From the NCBI RefSeq assembly GCF_029360725.1, contig NZ_JARKMY010000001.1, positions 62,001 through 126,000 on the forward strand: a stretch of 64,000 nt of DNA, read 5' to 3'. The notes below the pieces were generated by a model that did not search any database, was not told the origin of the DNA, and saw only the letters and a program-made list of their open reading frames with translations. Both the position numbers and the translations under genes were made by a program. Source of the stretch: Chryseolinea sp. H1M3-3 (GTDB lineage Bacteria > Bacteroidota > Bacteroidia > Cytophagales > Cyclobacteriaceae). Shown one piece after another: positions 15,318 to 44,819 of this stretch (positions are counted from its first letter, which is position 1; each line of letters begins with the position of its first letter).

Positions 15318-16844
15318 TCAGCTCATGGGATCATGTTGAAGTTTGGCAATTTCTTCAAACTCATCATACAATTTTGTACTTAGCCGTTCGAAAACAGCGA
15401 AGTACTTCTGATATAAAGTGTGGTTTTGCTTTTGAGGTTTATACGTGGTGGGTAACAATACCGTCGCGGCAGCTTCATCAAGATTTTTATAAACACCCAT
15501 ATCTATGGCGCTTAATAAAAACGAGCCTTGTGCAATGCTATCAGGATTTTTACCGACGCTTACAGGCTTGTCAAAAATATCAGCGATCATCTGTGCGCAA
15601 AATGGCATGGATGCAAAACTTCCATTAACCGTAAGACTGTTGATCACGCGGTGCTCCTGGAGGATCTTACCGATGCTGTAAATTTCATAAAGAATACCTT
15701 CAATAACGGCTCGCACAAAATGTTGCTTTTCGTGCTTGATGTTAATTCCAAAGAAGGTTCCGCGGGCATTGGCATTCCAAATGGGCGCCCTTTCTCCAAG
15801 TAAATACGGCAGGAAAATCAATCCATCGGAGCCAGCAGGCACTGCGTTGGCTTCCTGAATAAGATTTGTTAACGTATAGTCTAGATCAAAAGGAGTTTTA
15901 AAATCGCCGAAGTGCGTTGCAAACCACTCGAAGATGACTCCGCCATTATTGGTAGGGCCACCAGAGAGATAAAACTTATCGGTTAGGAGGTAGTTAAAAA
16001 AACGCTGCTTGCTGTCTTTCAATACTTCTTTACCGACGGTACGAACTGCTCCGCTATCTTCAATTGTAACAATAGCTTTACCCTCGCCCCAAACGCCCCC
16101 ACCCAGTGTTGCAAGACATCCATCGCTCGACCCGATAATAATTTTCACATCGTCCGTCAATCCCAGTGATCGTTGATATTCTTTTCTCAATTTACCAGGA
16201 GAATAAAACACCGGAACAACGTCTGGCAATTTGTCGGCCGTGATACCTGCATAGTGTAGTGCATCCGGTTCCCATGAGAGGTTATAAATATTCAGCAGAC
16301 CTGTGGCCGACGCCAGGCTATAATCCAAAATGTATCCCCGGGTGAGCTGCTGAATTATATAACTTTTGATGGCGACAAATTTATACGTCTTCTTAAATCT
16401 TTCCGGATCATGCCTGCCAAGCCATGTAATTTTAATAAGGGGTGACATGGGGTGAATAGGCGTCCCTGTAGTGTCATAGATTTTTTTTCCCAGCTCGCTG
16501 CTCTTCAATTCGCTCGCTTCCTTCTTTCCCCTGTTGTCGGCCCAAGTGATCGCATTCCCTAATGGCACACCATTTTTATCAATGGCCAACACACTATGCA
16601 TCGATGCACAGAAACACATTGAAATTACCTTGTAGTTTTTGGGATGAACCTTCTCGCTCAACAAATTTTTGAGGACGTATAACATGGTGATAAACATTTG
16701 TTCCGGATCCTGCTCGCTGTAATCCGGTTCAATGTGGAAGGTGGGATAAGATCCTTTCGCTGACGCAATAGCATTCCCGTTGAGATCAAAAGCCACCACC
16801 CGGACTGCATTAGTTCCAAGTTCAATCGTGATTACGCATTCCAT
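15318..16844 (-). CDS. FGGY-family carbohydrate kinase, gluconokinase-like
   Basis: 508 aa, cytoplasmic. The N-terminal ATPase half has IELGTNAVRVVAFD (phosphate-binding loop), YSEQDPEQMF and ITWADNRGKKEA; this run resembles the GntK-type gluconokinases more than xylulokinases. The C-terminal half has SDGCLATLGGG, GGPTNNGGVIFEW, LPYLLGERAPIWN and VNGSFASMPFCAQMIADIF, typical FGGY motifs with the active-site Asp in SSDGC. It phosphorylates a sugar acid, ketose or polyol derived from the PUL substrate. Its start overlaps the end of the AraC regulator gene by 23 nt, so the two are translationally coupled and expressed from operator copy C. The substrate (gluconate or another aldonate, or a pentulose) is inferred. 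Confidence 0.85.
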   Translation of the reverse strand: MECVITIELGTNAVRVVAFDLNGNAIASAKGSYPTFHIEPDYSEQDPEQMFITMLYVLKNLLSEKVHPKNYKVISMCFCASMHSVLAIDKNGVPLGNAITWADNRGKKEASELKSSELGKKIYDTTGTPIHPMSPLIKITWLGRHDPERFKKTYKFVAIKSYIIQQLTRGYILDYSLASATGLLNIYNLSWEPDALHYAGITADKLPDVVPVFYSPGKLRKEYQRSLGLTDDVKIIIGSSDGCLATLGGGVWGEGKAIVTIEDSGAVRTVGKEVLKDSKQRFFNYLLTDKFYLSGGPTNNGGVIFEWFATHFGDFKTPFDLDYTLTNLIQEANAVPAGSDGLIFLPYLLGERAPIWNANARGTFFGINIKHEKQHFVRAVIEGILYEIYSIGKILQEHRVINSLTVNGSFASMPFCAQMIADIFDKPVSVGKNPDSIAQGSFLLSAIDMGVYKNLDEAAATVLLPTTYKPQKQNHTLYQKYFAVFERLSTKLYDEFEEIAKLQHDPMS

Positions 16845-17748
16845 AAGATTGGGGATTGTCTAAAGTGTTTTGGGAGGCATTCCTTTTTCTAAACTGCCCG
16901 GGTGTATAACCTGTCAGCTTTTTGAACGTTGTCGAAAAGTGTTGCGACGAATAAAATCCTGTTTCAAGTGCAATGTTAGTGAAATTTGCATCCGCTCGCT
17001 TCAATAGTTTAATTGCCTCCGAAATCCTGATATTGATCAAGTAGTTCATTGGCGAAAAACCTGTAAAACTTTTTACTTTTTCTGTAAACGATGTTGTTCC
17101 CAGACCGAACAATGCAGCCATTTCCTCTACTGACCACTGATGCGCTAAATTGAGACGTAATGTTCGTTCAAGTTTCATGAATGTTCGCGGAAAATCTCTT
17201 CTGGAGTCTGCCTGAAGAGTGGATTGTCGTGCAACTGAAATGAACAATGAATCGATGAGATGATTGACACGCGTGAGATATCCAATTTCCTGGCTCATGA
17301 TTTCGGAACGGATTTTACAAAGGATGTTTGCAGCTTCCTTTATTTTAAGTACCGGTGTTTTATTAAGAAGCAGGATATTGCCGATGGCGAGTCGCTCGCT
17401 CTCTGAAATACTACTCCAGCTTCCGAGCATACCAGCTCCCTGCTTAACATTTTCAACTTGAATGAATAACCTATATAATGTACCTATATCGAGAAAACCT
17501 TTTGCGCCGCCAATTTCTTGTCCCGGTAAAACGAAAGCAATGTCTCCAGGGTACAGCGTATGGGGACATTGGTTGAGAATCCATTCAAATTTCCCGTCAA
17601 TCACGCAGTAAATTTGAATACTGTCAGAAACCCCAATAACAAACGAGTCCAGTTGAATTGTACTGTTTTTCGTCAAAGCAAATTCCTTGATGTGTGGAAA
17701 CAAATCCAGATCTCTTGATGATTCTTTCAATAGAGTAAACTGGTTCAT
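16822..17748 (-). CDS. AraC-family transcriptional regulator
   Basis: 308 aa. The N-terminal ~150 residues form a cupin-like ligand-binding domain (IYCVIDGKFEWILNQ, LYPGDIAFVLPGQEIG). The C-terminal ~100 residues hold the two helix-turn-helix motifs of the family: WSVEEMAALFGLGTTSFTE for the first, and FTNIALETGFYSSQHFST with the signature FKKLTGYTPGQFRK for the second. It probably senses a sugar released from the glycan and activates the PUL. It is the first gene of a two-gene unit with the FGGY kinase (23-nt overlap) and has a ~120-nt leader after operator copy C, so autoregulation is possible. Whether it or an unlinked LacI-type protein binds copies A-C cannot be told. Confidence 0.92.
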   Translation of the reverse strand: MNQFTLLKESSRDLDLFPHIKEFALTKNSTIQLDSFVIGVSDSIQIYCVIDGKFEWILNQCPHTLYPGDIAFVLPGQEIGGAKGFLDIGTLYRLFIQVENVKQGAGMLGSWSSISESERLAIGNILLLNKTPVLKIKEAANILCKIRSEIMSQEIGYLTRVNHLIDSLFISVARQSTLQADSRRDFPRTFMKLERTLRLNLAHQWSVEEMAALFGLGTTSFTEKVKSFTGFSPMNYLINIRISEAIKLLKRADANFTNIALETGFYSSQHFSTTFKKLTGYTPGQFRKRNASQNTLDNPQSYGMRNHD

Positions 17749-17868
17749 GCCTTCAATTCCGGGTAGGTAATCTGATCGCTTGTTGTTACGTCGCCTATTT
17801 TCCTAACTACACTGATGTTACTAAACCCTATTGCACCGTCCGACTACTGACACATTAAGTGTATTTAA

Positions 17869-17923
17869 TACAATTATAATTTTAGCAACGCAGAAAAACA
17901 AGTATCGTTTGTGAAAACGATTG
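17869..17923 (-). promoter_or_regulatory. Promoter plus operator, copy C, before the AraC-kinase unit
   Basis: TACAATTATAA (17869-17879) carries a minus-strand TATAATTG -7 box. The operator at 17898-17923 contains the most symmetrical version of the motif: ATCGTTT (17904-17910), GTGA, AAACGAT (17915-17921), a perfect 7-bp inverted repeat. It also contains TGAAAACGATTGCA, which fits the cre-type consensus TGNAANCGNWNNCA of LacI-family proteins. Between 17924 and 18280 nothing else is recognisable except a small AGCCTG-tat-CAGGCT hairpin near 18028. Confidence 0.65.
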
Positions 17924-18280
17924 CATTAACCGAAGACAATGATAAATCGAGCAGTCTTATGCCGGCGTAAATGAGGATTTCATGTTGGGTGTGTTACTTG
18001 TCAATGCCTGATTTCTTTAATTTTGGCAAGCCTGTATCAGGCTATGATGCAGTGTCATAAGTTGTTCCGGTGAAGTACACTGATGTTGTTTTATCTCAAG
18101 GATTGCTGAAATTCCGGGTACGGATATTTACAGAAATTCAACCTGTGATGTAAGCCCAATCGGGGCAACGTGAATTCGTTCGCGTATTCGCGGCAGGTTT
18201 TTGAAAAATGAAAAAAATTTGGCTATTTGAGTTTAAAAAACCCCGTTTTTGACCACTGAAGCAGGATAACCGTTTTTATT

Positions 18281-18623
18281 TTCATCTTACACCGATTGAT
18301 TTTCACGTTTTACATATTGTACACGTGAAAATACATCTGTGTAGTCAGGCTACACATCTTTGGCACCCCGTTATACATCTGTAACTTCCGGTTATACATA
18401 TTGTATTTCACGTTATACATATTGTTAGTCAGGTTATACATCTTTGTAGTCACGTTATACATATTGTACACGTGACTATACATATTGAACTTCCGGTTAT
18501 ACATATGTGTAGCCAGACTTACAATATGTGTAGCGTGACTATACATATGTATAACCTGAATATCAATATGTGTAGCCGCGTTATAAAGATGTATAACGTG
18601 AAAATGAATCGGTGTAAGATGAA
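18281..18623. repeat. 343-bp array of 21-bp-period repeats bounded by 29-bp inverted repeats
   Basis: Fifteen units follow each other in strict 21-bp register, each with an ACAT-type anchor at 18312, 18333, 18354 and so on to 18606. Units 0-9, and 11, keep ACAT exactly; 10, 12, 13 and 14 are decayed (CAAT, AAAG, GAAT). The typical unit is GTCACG or TTCCGG, then TTATACATATTGTA. Left-hand spacers read TCACG/TCAGG; right-hand ones read CGTGA/CCTGA, so the array is an inverted arrangement. Its ends are a 29-bp inverted repeat (18281-18309 and 18595-18623) with a single mismatch. The unit length equals two turns of B-DNA. It starts 81 nt past the stop codon of the last gene of the region 2 PUL and lies upstream of the AraC promoter. 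All frames repeat every seven codons, so open frames here are not evidence for a gene. Confidence 0.9.
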
Positions 18624-18703
18624 ATTTATTTTCCCTTTTTTGGAAAACAAAACATTAAACCGACTAGAAGCCACCCACGGGCATCGATCCCTACACCTGA
18701 TCC

Positions 18704-19789
18704 TTAAACTAAAACGGTTTTACTCAGAAAGCTCGCTACAAATTGGTCATCGATGAAGTCGGGGTTGGCTTGAATAACCCTATCAATTTCGTTTAGCTGT
18801 CCAGGGGAAAGCTCTTCTTTCGGATTTAAACACCAAAGCCCTTCTAGCAACCCTTGCCTCCTCAATACTTCATGAATTCCGGGAATGCATCCATGAAATG
18901 AATTGGCGGCATCGAAGATGGCTGCATTCATGTCGGTGATTTTGATTCCGTCGGCGAGAAGCTTACCGATGTGCTCGTCATTTGTGCGGTTTGATTTTAT
19001 TTCTTTTAAAAGACTTACTGCAGCCTTTGTCCACACCGCCCAGTGGCCCAGCAAACCACCGACAAATCTTTTTTCAACGGTTACACCTTTGACCATAAAG
19101 CGATAAGGCGTAATAAGATCTGCAACAATATTATCATCATTGCCGGTGTATAATGCGATTGCGTCTCTCCTACTCGAATCACAAACAGCCCTGACTACAT
19201 CAAGCGTCTGATATCTGTTGAAGGCCGCCACTTTGATCGCATATACATTCGGGATTTCAGCAAACTCACGCCAGAATTGATAACTGAGCAATCGTCCTCC
19301 CACAGCAGGCTGAAGGTAAAAACCGAAAACAGGAATAACCGAAGCAACGGCCCGGGTACGCTCAATCAGATCGGCTTCCGAATAATCTTTTAAGCCGCCC
19401 ATGCTAACCAGGCCGAGGTGAAATCCATACTTCCGTGCCAGTTCCGCTTCGTGAATGGCTTGCGCCGTTGGCCCGACAATTCCGGCCACCTTGATGAACG
19501 GGCGGTGTACATTTGATCGATCGATTTCTTCGGCAGCAATACGCAACACCGGTTCAAGCAGTTCTACACCAGGATTTCGGATTTCGAATTGCGTGGTATG
19601 TACTCCCACTGCCACACCGCCGGCCCCGGCAGCAAGATAATATTGTGTTAGAAGCCGTTGTCTTCTCTCGTCAAGCCTCCGATTTTCATTTAATGCAAGT
19701 GGATGTGCAGGAATAACCGTTCCTTCCTGTAAGGCTGCATTAATGGTTAAGTCAAGTTGCGGAAAGTCCATAACGTTATGCTCATTCAT
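18704..19789 (-). CDS. Dihydrodipicolinate synthase / N-acetylneuraminate lyase-family aldolase
   Basis: 361 aa, cytoplasmic, longer than typical DapA (~290 aa). The TIM-barrel features of the class I pyruvate aldolase family are present: VIPAHPLALNENRRLDERRQ at the N-terminus, AAGAGGVAVGVHTTQ in the place of the Gly-Thr-Thr-Gly region, a Tyr in FGFYLQPAVGG, and the Schiff-base Lys in YAIKVAAF. Such proteins cleave or form 2-keto acids, including sugar-derived ones. The gene is last in a long co-directional series and follows an epimerase/dehydratase by 6 nt, so the two likely act on one substrate. The lysine supports real aldolase or dehydratase chemistry; the substrate is unknown. Confidence 0.82.
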   Translation of the reverse strand: MNEHNVMDFPQLDLTINAALQEGTVIPAHPLALNENRRLDERRQRLLTQYYLAAGAGGVAVGVHTTQFEIRNPGVELLEPVLRIAAEEIDRSNVHRPFIKVAGIVGPTAQAIHEAELARKYGFHLGLVSMGGLKDYSEADLIERTRAVASVIPVFGFYLQPAVGGRLLSYQFWREFAEIPNVYAIKVAAFNRYQTLDVVRAVCDSSRRDAIALYTGNDDNIVADLITPYRFMVKGVTVEKRFVGGLLGHWAVWTKAAVSLLKEIKSNRTNDEHIGKLLADGIKITDMNAAIFDAANSFHGCIPGIHEVLRRQGLLEGLWCLNPKEELSPGQLNEIDRVIQANPDFIDDQFVASFLSKTVLV

Positions 19790-43127: not shown

Positions 43128-44819
43128 ATGGAACATCGCTCCAAAAGAAGAACTGTTGTCATTGGATTCGTTGTGATCGTCATTCTGCTTGCAGGTAATA
43201 TACTCCTGACGTATAGAAATAGCGTTAATATCAATAGAAACACTGCTTTGCAAAATAGGTCTGAGCGAATCAAAACGATCGTCTCCTACATCGCAATTGA
43301 TATCATTCACAACCTTGATCTCGGAATAAGAAGCTACGCGCTGTTTAAAGACGAACGATACCTTTATCCCTATCACAAAGCCCTTGACCGGAAGGATTCT
43401 ATTCTCCAGTTAGCTGAGACCGTTCTCAAGGAGGAAAATTATTCCATGGATGAATTCAATTTGTTGAAAGATTCGATTGAAGCATATGTAGCGCTCAACA
43501 AGAATTTAAAATTACTGGTAGATGAAAACAACATAGCAGCGTTCATTGGGTTGGCGGATCGCGATAAGGGGTACCATCTTTGGTTGCAGTACGAACACTT
43601 TGCGCGAGCCATAAATGATTTTGAGAATGTAGTTCTCCAAAATGCAAAAGCACGTTATCACGCGGCCCTCAGAAATAATTATGTGCTTCAAATCCTTCTG
43701 TTCCTGATTTGTGTTCCTACGTTGATATTTACTATCAGGCGTACTTTCAAAGAATTTGAACTGGAACGGCAACTTCGAGCAGCGGAAATCGAACGTGCCG
43801 ATCTGCTGAAGTCGCAGAATGAACGGCTTGAACAAATGGTCGCTGATAGAACAAGTGAAATCACCGAAAAAAATCGTGAACTGCAACGACGCCAAGATGA
43901 AATCGAGGCACAGAACGAGGAAATGCGATCACAGAACGATCAATTGGTAAGGCAACAAGAAGAAATTGTTGAGCAGCGCGATCTTGTTACTTTACAAAAC
44001 AACAAGCTTACCCATGCACAGGAAATAATACTTCAGCAACAAGCAGAAATCAGAAACAAAAATGAGTATCTGGAAATTGAAGTGGCCCGAAAAACGAAAG
44101 AATTGCTTAACAATAATCAGCAGCTGGAGCAGTTTGCTTTCGCATCTGCGCATAACCTTCGGGGACCGGTGGCCCGTATCCTCGGTTTGGGAAACGTACT
44201 TAGCTACTCGCGCCATGATCGGGAAGAAGAGCAGCTCATTATCAAGAACATCATTAAATCAACGGTTGAGCTGGACGTAACTATTAAAGATTTAACCACG
44301 ATTCTTAATATCAGAAGCAACGTCACTGCCCGTCTGAGCAACATCAACTTCAGCGATGAAATGCAAATCATAAAGTCAAACCTTGCCAAGGATTTATGGG
44401 AAACGGGCGGCACAATTGTAGAGAATTTTGATGAGGCTCCAAATATAACTTCTGTAAAGGCATACATCGATAGCATCTTGTTTAACCTCATCAGCAATGC
44501 CATTAAATTCCGCTCCCCCGAACGACCGCTTTTCATTACGGTTCGAACATCGAAAGTAAGTGAATTTGTTTGTCTTGAAGTAACGGACAACGGACTGGGT
44601 ATTGATTTGACAAAATACGGAAATGAAATTTTTTCATTATACAAAAGATTTCATTCACACACGGAAGGAAAAGGGCTTGGATTACATCTGGTAAAAATGC
44701 AGGCTGCTGCCGCTGGCGGACATGTTGAAGTTAAAAGTATTCCGGATGAAGGGTCAACTTTTTCGGTCTACTTGAGAGATCACGCTGAAAGTCATGAGAA
44801 AGATGATGGAGCACGATGA
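43128..44819 (+). CDS. Orphan sensor histidine kinase with CHASE3-type domain and long coiled coil
   Basis: 563 aa. First transmembrane helix at about 9-27 (VVIGFVVIVILLAGNILLTY), an extracytoplasmic helical CHASE3-like domain to about 180, and a second helix at about 187-203 (LQILLFLICVPTLIFTI). A coiled coil of ~110 residues follows, rich in Gln and Glu (QDEIEAQNEEMRSQNDQL). The transmitter has the H-box SAHNLRGPVARILGL, N-box NLISNAIKFR, G1 VTDNGLGIDL and G2 GKGLGLHLVKMQA, all intact. It autophosphorylates on that His in response to an unknown signal. No response regulator gene is adjacent, so the partner must be elsewhere. Confidence 0.9.
   Translation: MEHRSKRRTVVIGFVVIVILLAGNILLTYRNSVNINRNTALQNRSERIKTIVSYIAIDIIHNLDLGIRSYALFKDERYLYPYHKALDRKDSILQLAETVLKEENYSMDEFNLLKDSIEAYVALNKNLKLLVDENNIAAFIGLADRDKGYHLWLQYEHFARAINDFENVVLQNAKARYHAALRNNYVLQILLFLICVPTLIFTIRRTFKEFELERQLRAAEIERADLLKSQNERLEQMVADRTSEITEKNRELQRRQDEIEAQNEEMRSQNDQLVRQQEEIVEQRDLVTLQNNKLTHAQEIILQQQAEIRNKNEYLEIEVARKTKELLNNNQQLEQFAFASAHNLRGPVARILGLGNVLSYSRHDREEEQLIIKNIIKSTVELDVTIKDLTTILNIRSNVTARLSNINFSDEMQIIKSNLAKDLWETGGTIVENFDEAPNITSVKAYIDSILFNLISNAIKFRSPERPLFITVRTSKVSEFVCLEVTDNGLGIDLTKYGNEIFSLYKRFHSHTEGKGLGLHLVKMQAAAAGGHVEVKSIPDEGSTFSVYLRDHAESHEKDDGAR

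Follow-up and report, generated by a model that had tools for sequence, protein, structure and literature searches.

The window analysed here, a stretch of 64,000 nucleotides from the genome of Chryseolinea sp. H1M3-3 (Bacteroidota; contig NZ_JARKMY010000001.1, positions 62,001 to 126,000), holds a non-coding array of 21-bp units between a gene for an AraC-type regulator and a gene with a DHDPS-family match (Table 1). The first-pass annotation had described an array of this period enclosed by an inverted repeat, and its place, its register and its arms, which are 97% identical over 30 bases with one mismatch by genome BLAST, all hold. However, the arms, 285 bp apart, both lie within the 21-bp register and not outside the array, so that the body amounts to 16 units of exactly 21 bp, or 336 bp. 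A two-orientation fit assigns the units the signs ++-++++++++-----, which are descriptive only as the fit has no null model, and agrees with the flip towards the right end that had been noted earlier. Positions A7 and T10 are invariant in 48 of 48 overlapping three-unit windows taken from two copies and both strands. A lag scan for the 21-bp period covered 495,002 bases of the genome, namely the window, the two fetched loci with further copies and 20 stretches, each of 20 kb; scores are 0.31-0.37 for the three copies of the array and 0.17 for the next-best place. With all three copies such far outliers, the 21-bp array is not a product of chance.

Table 1. Positions of the array, its parts and its neighbours (window coordinates unless a locus is named)
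Feature	Position	Strand	Remarks
Array body	18287..18622	.	16 x 21 bp; pooled consensus approximately nTATACATATGTATAnTCnGA; both unit orientations by descriptive fit
Left inverted arm	18280..18309	+	29/30 bases equal to right arm; contains unit 1 in register
Right inverted arm	18595..18624	-	contains unit 16 in register
Right-half palindrome	18434..18622	.	units 8-16 about unit 12; kept in third copy (L032:7788-7976)
Stretch common to second copy	18273..18649	.	95% to G000:C12 (L031:8478-8850); includes 27-bp right tail outside array
Neighbour, AraC-type regulator	16822..17748	-	array 539 bp before gene start
Neighbour, DHDPS-family match	18704..19789	-	28 bits, cut-off 22.1; array 81 bp past gene stop
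Neighbours of window copy			AraC-type regulator and DHDPS-family (Pfam)
Neighbours of second copy			HTH regulator (IclR-type match) and ORF without match (Pfam)
Neighbours of third copy			2Fe-2S protein and ORF without match (Pfam)

A coding origin as a heptad repeat was rejected, since none of the six frames is free of stops in the third copy or in the N-interrupted second copy. The window copy has one stop only in each of its two most open frames and a mechanically called ORF of 84 amino acids overlaps the second copy; no reading frame is open across all three. Elsewhere in the window, positions 43841-44060, which lie within an open frame, have a 21-bp period of the kind that heptad repeats produce, a confounder for period searches. 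A repeat of about 70 bp upstream of the AraC-type gene (17853-17928) occurs also at 2686-2756 of the window, on contig C12 of the same genome and in genome G004, and is possibly a shared regulatory stretch.

Dispersed copies in the genome

Whole-genome BLAST places the array at three sites in the 6.88-Mb genome. The second copy (C12:1188477, locus L031) is 95% identical to the window over 18273-18649 and has unrelated flanks on both sides; its internal orientation is that of the window copy, and it carries a run of 10 N at which the register shifts. The third copy (C12:993725, locus L032) matches at 75% identity over 253 bases and likewise comprises 16 units. When units of the same index are compared between the window and the third copy, the agreement is 0.68 over all 16, as against 0.52-0.63 at 12 shifts, which suggests inheritance of the array as a whole rather than renewed expansion. 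The presence of further copies at other sites indicates a dispersed element and not a local expansion, and the earlier question of whether the array might be unique to one place is thereby answered.

The genes beside the three copies have no neighbour type in common (Pfam scan of the six flanking proteins; Table 1). There is no Rep, transposase or partition gene by Pfam among these six, two of which are without any match, and a search for a recombinase in the two genes adjoining the window array, again by Pfam, gave none. According to mechanical ORF calls, the window copy lies in a tandem gap and the other two in divergent gaps between gene starts. Clean empty sites of window-type copies were sought in the genus and none was found. 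The two loci also contain other repeats, with 166-bp tandem repeats at L031:1555-2697 (more copies are on contig C2 of the same genome) and 7- to 8-bp repeats of the GGTAATC/GATTACC type at L031:6973-7018 and L032:4221-4449.

Mirror symmetry of the units and folding

The pooled columns of the array show mirror complementarity around positions 8.5 and 19 of the unit, which gives two dyads per 21 bp. When the 21 columns are permuted and the units kept (14 units each), this symmetry is reached by none of 2000 permutations in the window copy and by none in the third copy; the N-interrupted second copy, for which nine units were tested, fails (0.32). Column permutation was used in place of a dyad-phase z-score, whose values are raised by tandem repetition and codon phase and so are not taken as a measure of significance. 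Single units are not self-paired beyond expectation (115 matches vs 125.3 expected and 79 vs 94.2; 28 units). We read the array as a series of oriented sites that may be able to sit either way round.

RNA folding across the array, proposed earlier as a check, is indeed far above that of shuffled sequences on both strands (z -13.5 and -15.8; third copy -7.6), and much of it is a consequence of the self-complementary unit. The array as a whole, mirrored about its middle, does not pair above permuted unit orders (0.40, 0.69) and is not a matched hairpin; the pairing of the arms across this middle does not exceed that of other unit pairs. The right-half palindrome does exceed permuted unit orders, at 0.044 in the window and 0.090 in the third copy with all centres allowed for, and the joint permutation gives 0.007 for two copies that are homologous and hence not independent. 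At its centre, four changes keep pairing on both sides, vs 12 window pairs changed on one side, and several other centres show such two-sided changes at least as often. The right half may act as a hairpin or cruciform. An Rfam scan of the whole window at gathering threshold returned tmRNA only, with no match for the array.

Occurrence in other genomes

No match to the array occurs in 58 relatives (BLAST, E 0.001) or in 389 other genomes of the family (strict two-unit pattern). A plasmid or phage origin was rejected, with blastn of the array at E 0.01 empty both in 72,556 plasmid records and in phages. Viral contigs contain five matches to a 17-base end pattern, of which four reach no more than -2.3 when scored for four units in step, and the fifth does not appear among the 30 places listed by that score; a scan of these contigs found no relative of the AraC-type neighbour, and one Moorena-type and one window-type array pattern gave no matches there. 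A three-unit profile run with stricter filters on 291 genomes of the order, the source genome included, recovered that genome and, weakly, five others. One of the five, G438, carries at a contig end a 21-bp array of a different unit that is not mirror-symmetric (0.57), and the other four have no dominant 21-bp lag in 240-base stretches.

Other 21-bp arrays were fetched from GTDB contigs by the exact pattern GTTATACAT-N12-GTTATACAT, which itself selects this period; it matched 26 places, several of them 21-bp arrays of other units. Two related arrays lie in one Bacteroidales MAG (L049:480-710 and L065:1931-2182), and the period occurs also in a Spirochaetaceae MAG (L060:5839-6132) and a Dysgonamonadaceae MAG (L045:5060-5290), in neither of which symmetry is significant (0.086 and 0.38, respectively). 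Unbiased sampling of 800 kb across six relatives yielded two non-coding 21-bp arrays along with arrays of other periods: L219:8363-8656 is a degenerate array in a member of the window's genus (G001), in which it has only weak short second matches, and L207:17223-17411 is a degenerate array in an order-level relative.

Among the 20 sets submitted to column permutation, six reached 0.01 or less: the window copy, the third copy, L059 (Moorena), L065 (0.0035), L219 (0.004) and L219 extended (0.0005), the last two being one array. L065 and L219 were chosen after looking and are leads only; their counterparts L049 (0.17) and L207 (0.18) do not pass. Next come L051a (0.0135), the coding control L197 (0.026), L051b (0.064) and L060, and values of 0.17-0.73 were obtained for L031, L049, L045, L050, L063, L207, L053, L067, L155 and the coding window control. 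With so few sets passing, most of the other pattern-fetched 21-bp arrays have only the period in common. A literature search found no description of such arrays by title or abstract start among the matches listed.

Arrays in Moorena

One of the 26 pattern matches lies in a MAG of the cyanobacterium Moorena. BLAST within this MAG detects eight dispersed array loci and a further 16 are found in three genomes of its genus, i.e., 24 loci in four genomes (L252:7728-8005 and 23 others, L245-L251 and L312-L327). Their unit, approximately gTtAcAAACcAGTACTcGTTT, is unrelated in sequence to that of the window. Counted with a profile built from five arrays, with the pieces of slipped or split arrays summed, 19 of the 24 loci have 11-17 units and five have fewer; a 1-bp register slip occurs at seven. 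Mirror symmetry was present in all 12 arrays tested, each with an unbroken register, at 0/400 permutations each, several of these arrays being related to each other. Two loci from different genomes, L313 and L324, have 16 units each and matching ends.

The core pair 11-16 of the Moorena unit shows covariation of the kind seen in base pairs (128 of 165 vs 104.2 expected), most outer pairs being at or below expectation. Over 16 columns, 9 of 12 arrays show slightly more pairing within units than between them, and 10 of 12 show less pairing about the array middle than between units. By eye, the arrays have two differing conserved ends and no consistent inverted pair. One site has at least six homologous stretches, orthologous or paralogous, that are without the array and contain other short repeats instead. 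At L312:4110-8391, an array is split by an insert that carries a reverse transcriptase of the group II intron type; a DDE-domain ORF also lies within it.

Eleven of the 24 arrays are 5' of a TPR-repeat gene, some with CHAT, and others precede TPS, CAP, KAP-type or RRXRR-HNH genes. None of the 19 classifiable arrays (the count leaves out the split array and four others that lie at the edge of a contig or locus) is in a convergent gap, which is not unusual given that convergent gaps make up 5% of the background gap length. Promoter-proximal placement was rejected as not above background.

What the array may be

The explanation that we tentatively favour is that of a dispersed array of phased candidate protein-binding sites, with a whole body of 16 sites, that would be copied as a whole. 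Sixteen putative sites, one every two helical turns, would make up the entire non-coding element, each with a pseudo-two-fold core in either orientation, and dimeric proteins bound to them would align on one face of the helix in a nucleoprotein rod about 32 turns long. The geometry fits the earlier proposal of proteins on a single helical face, for sites that are themselves putative. The element would be copied whole into new intergenic places, and the task of the rod could be the regulation of a nearby promoter, the organisation of DNA or recognition by a recombinase; we infer the protein binding, its dimeric nature and this task. A search for a cognate binding protein found none.

Protein sites are favoured because the columns are mirror-symmetric and yet the units are not self-paired beyond chance, and because the array mirrored about its middle is no better paired than permuted orders. 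The exact period, the 16 units in two copies, the invariant A7 and T10, the dispersal of the copies and the same design in Moorena, along with the array-free homologues of one site there, also argue for them. Against them we count the right-half palindrome, the 11-16 covariation and slight excess of within-unit pairing in Moorena, the register slips at 7 of 24 loci there, the N-interrupted copy failing the symmetry test, the absence of a common neighbour type in the Chryseolinea genome and that of a promoter-proximal bias in Moorena.

The copies dispersed among unrelated flanks, the 29/30 inverted ends of the window copy and the Moorena site with array-free homologues could also be expected of a non-autonomous foldback or MITE-type transposable element, whose array would be the recognition end for a transposase encoded elsewhere, now or formerly. 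The mobile inverted-repeat element of the first-pass annotation stands as far as dispersal is concerned, but the third copy lacks matching ends (0.31 for each of the outermost two pairs) and the Moorena ends are of two differing kinds. Furthermore, no target-site duplication is evident by eye in the three copies or in the one Moorena site compared with its homologues, no autonomous partner was found, other matches to the ends in the Chryseolinea genome being short and at E 0.3 or worse, and none of the six flanking proteins is a transposase by Pfam. All of this makes such an element unlikely, although a partner whose ends have diverged may exist. The inverted arms would also suit an inverton, a segment switched between them, being long, near-perfect and upstream of a regulator gene; the third copy without such arms, the near-identical second copy in the same internal orientation and the two adjoining genes that are not recombinases render this very improbable indeed.

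Another reading is a minisatellite family, neutral or nearly so, that recombination has spread and in which 21 bp is an accidental length; it would agree with the tandem repeats of other periods in the sampled relatives and with the absence of the array from the other family genomes under the strict pattern. We regard it as improbable, as both the window copy and the third copy have kept 16 units despite about 68-75% identity, L313 and L324 have the same number with matching ends in different genomes, and the mirror symmetry recurs in unrelated sequences. The strong folding and the right-half palindrome of both tested copies speak for a structured nucleic acid, be it an RNA hairpin (at an mRNA 3' end or in a stand-alone RNA) or a cruciform, to which we give little credence: much of the folding is explained by the unit itself, mirroring the whole array about its middle gives nothing out of the ordinary, changes on both sides that preserve pairing are not enriched at the right-half centre, the second and third copies both sit in divergent gaps, and Rfam offers no match at gathering threshold. 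The structured 3' end of an mRNA envisaged earlier is not supported, given this placement of the two copies and the unremarkable pairing of the arms.

The phased 21-bp array, for which protein sites are our favoured explanation, suggests a little-described kind of DNA element, and the same design in unrelated Moorena sequences makes a class of such elements possible, though not proven. This prokaryotic class, a doubtful proposition as yet, would owe its definition to design rather than sequence: roughly 11-17 units at 21 bp, mirror-complementary columns and oriented pseudo-palindromic sites either way round, copied whole between intergenic sites. It would occur in cyanobacteria and in the lineage of the window, with Bacteroidales supplying further leads, and every lineage would have a unit of its own and, presumably, a binding protein that co-evolves with it. 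If this were true, long rods of phased protein sites may be present in many genomes, filed as unrelated minisatellites by repeat finders that work on sequence, a simple architecture search would find more of them, and they would point to a DNA-binding protein not yet known, with its target in plain sight.

Comparison with known systems

Plasmid iterons are Rep-binding repeats spaced by about two helical turns. The array has in common with them sites at about this distance on one face of the helix, but differs in its two unit orientations (by descriptive fit), its 16 units and its three chromosomal copies; no replication gene adjoins any copy and plasmids gave no blastn match. The parC site of plasmid R1 is a partition site with phased iterons, likewise a regular array spaced by whole helical turns, whereas the three copies of our array are dispersed and have no partition gene next to them. 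Foldback elements are characterized by ends made of sub-repeats and by long self-complementarity. Compared with elements of this type such as Galileo, and with MITEs (PMC4168063), the array is similarly dispersed and non-coding with ends of sub-repeats and long self-complementarity, but its inverted ends are not constant among copies, and neither a target-site duplication nor an autonomous partner was found. REP palindromes (PMC3733652) are intergenic palindromic repeats, as is the array. In contrast to their high copy number, the array is present in three copies, and it keeps a strict 21-bp phase over 16 units.
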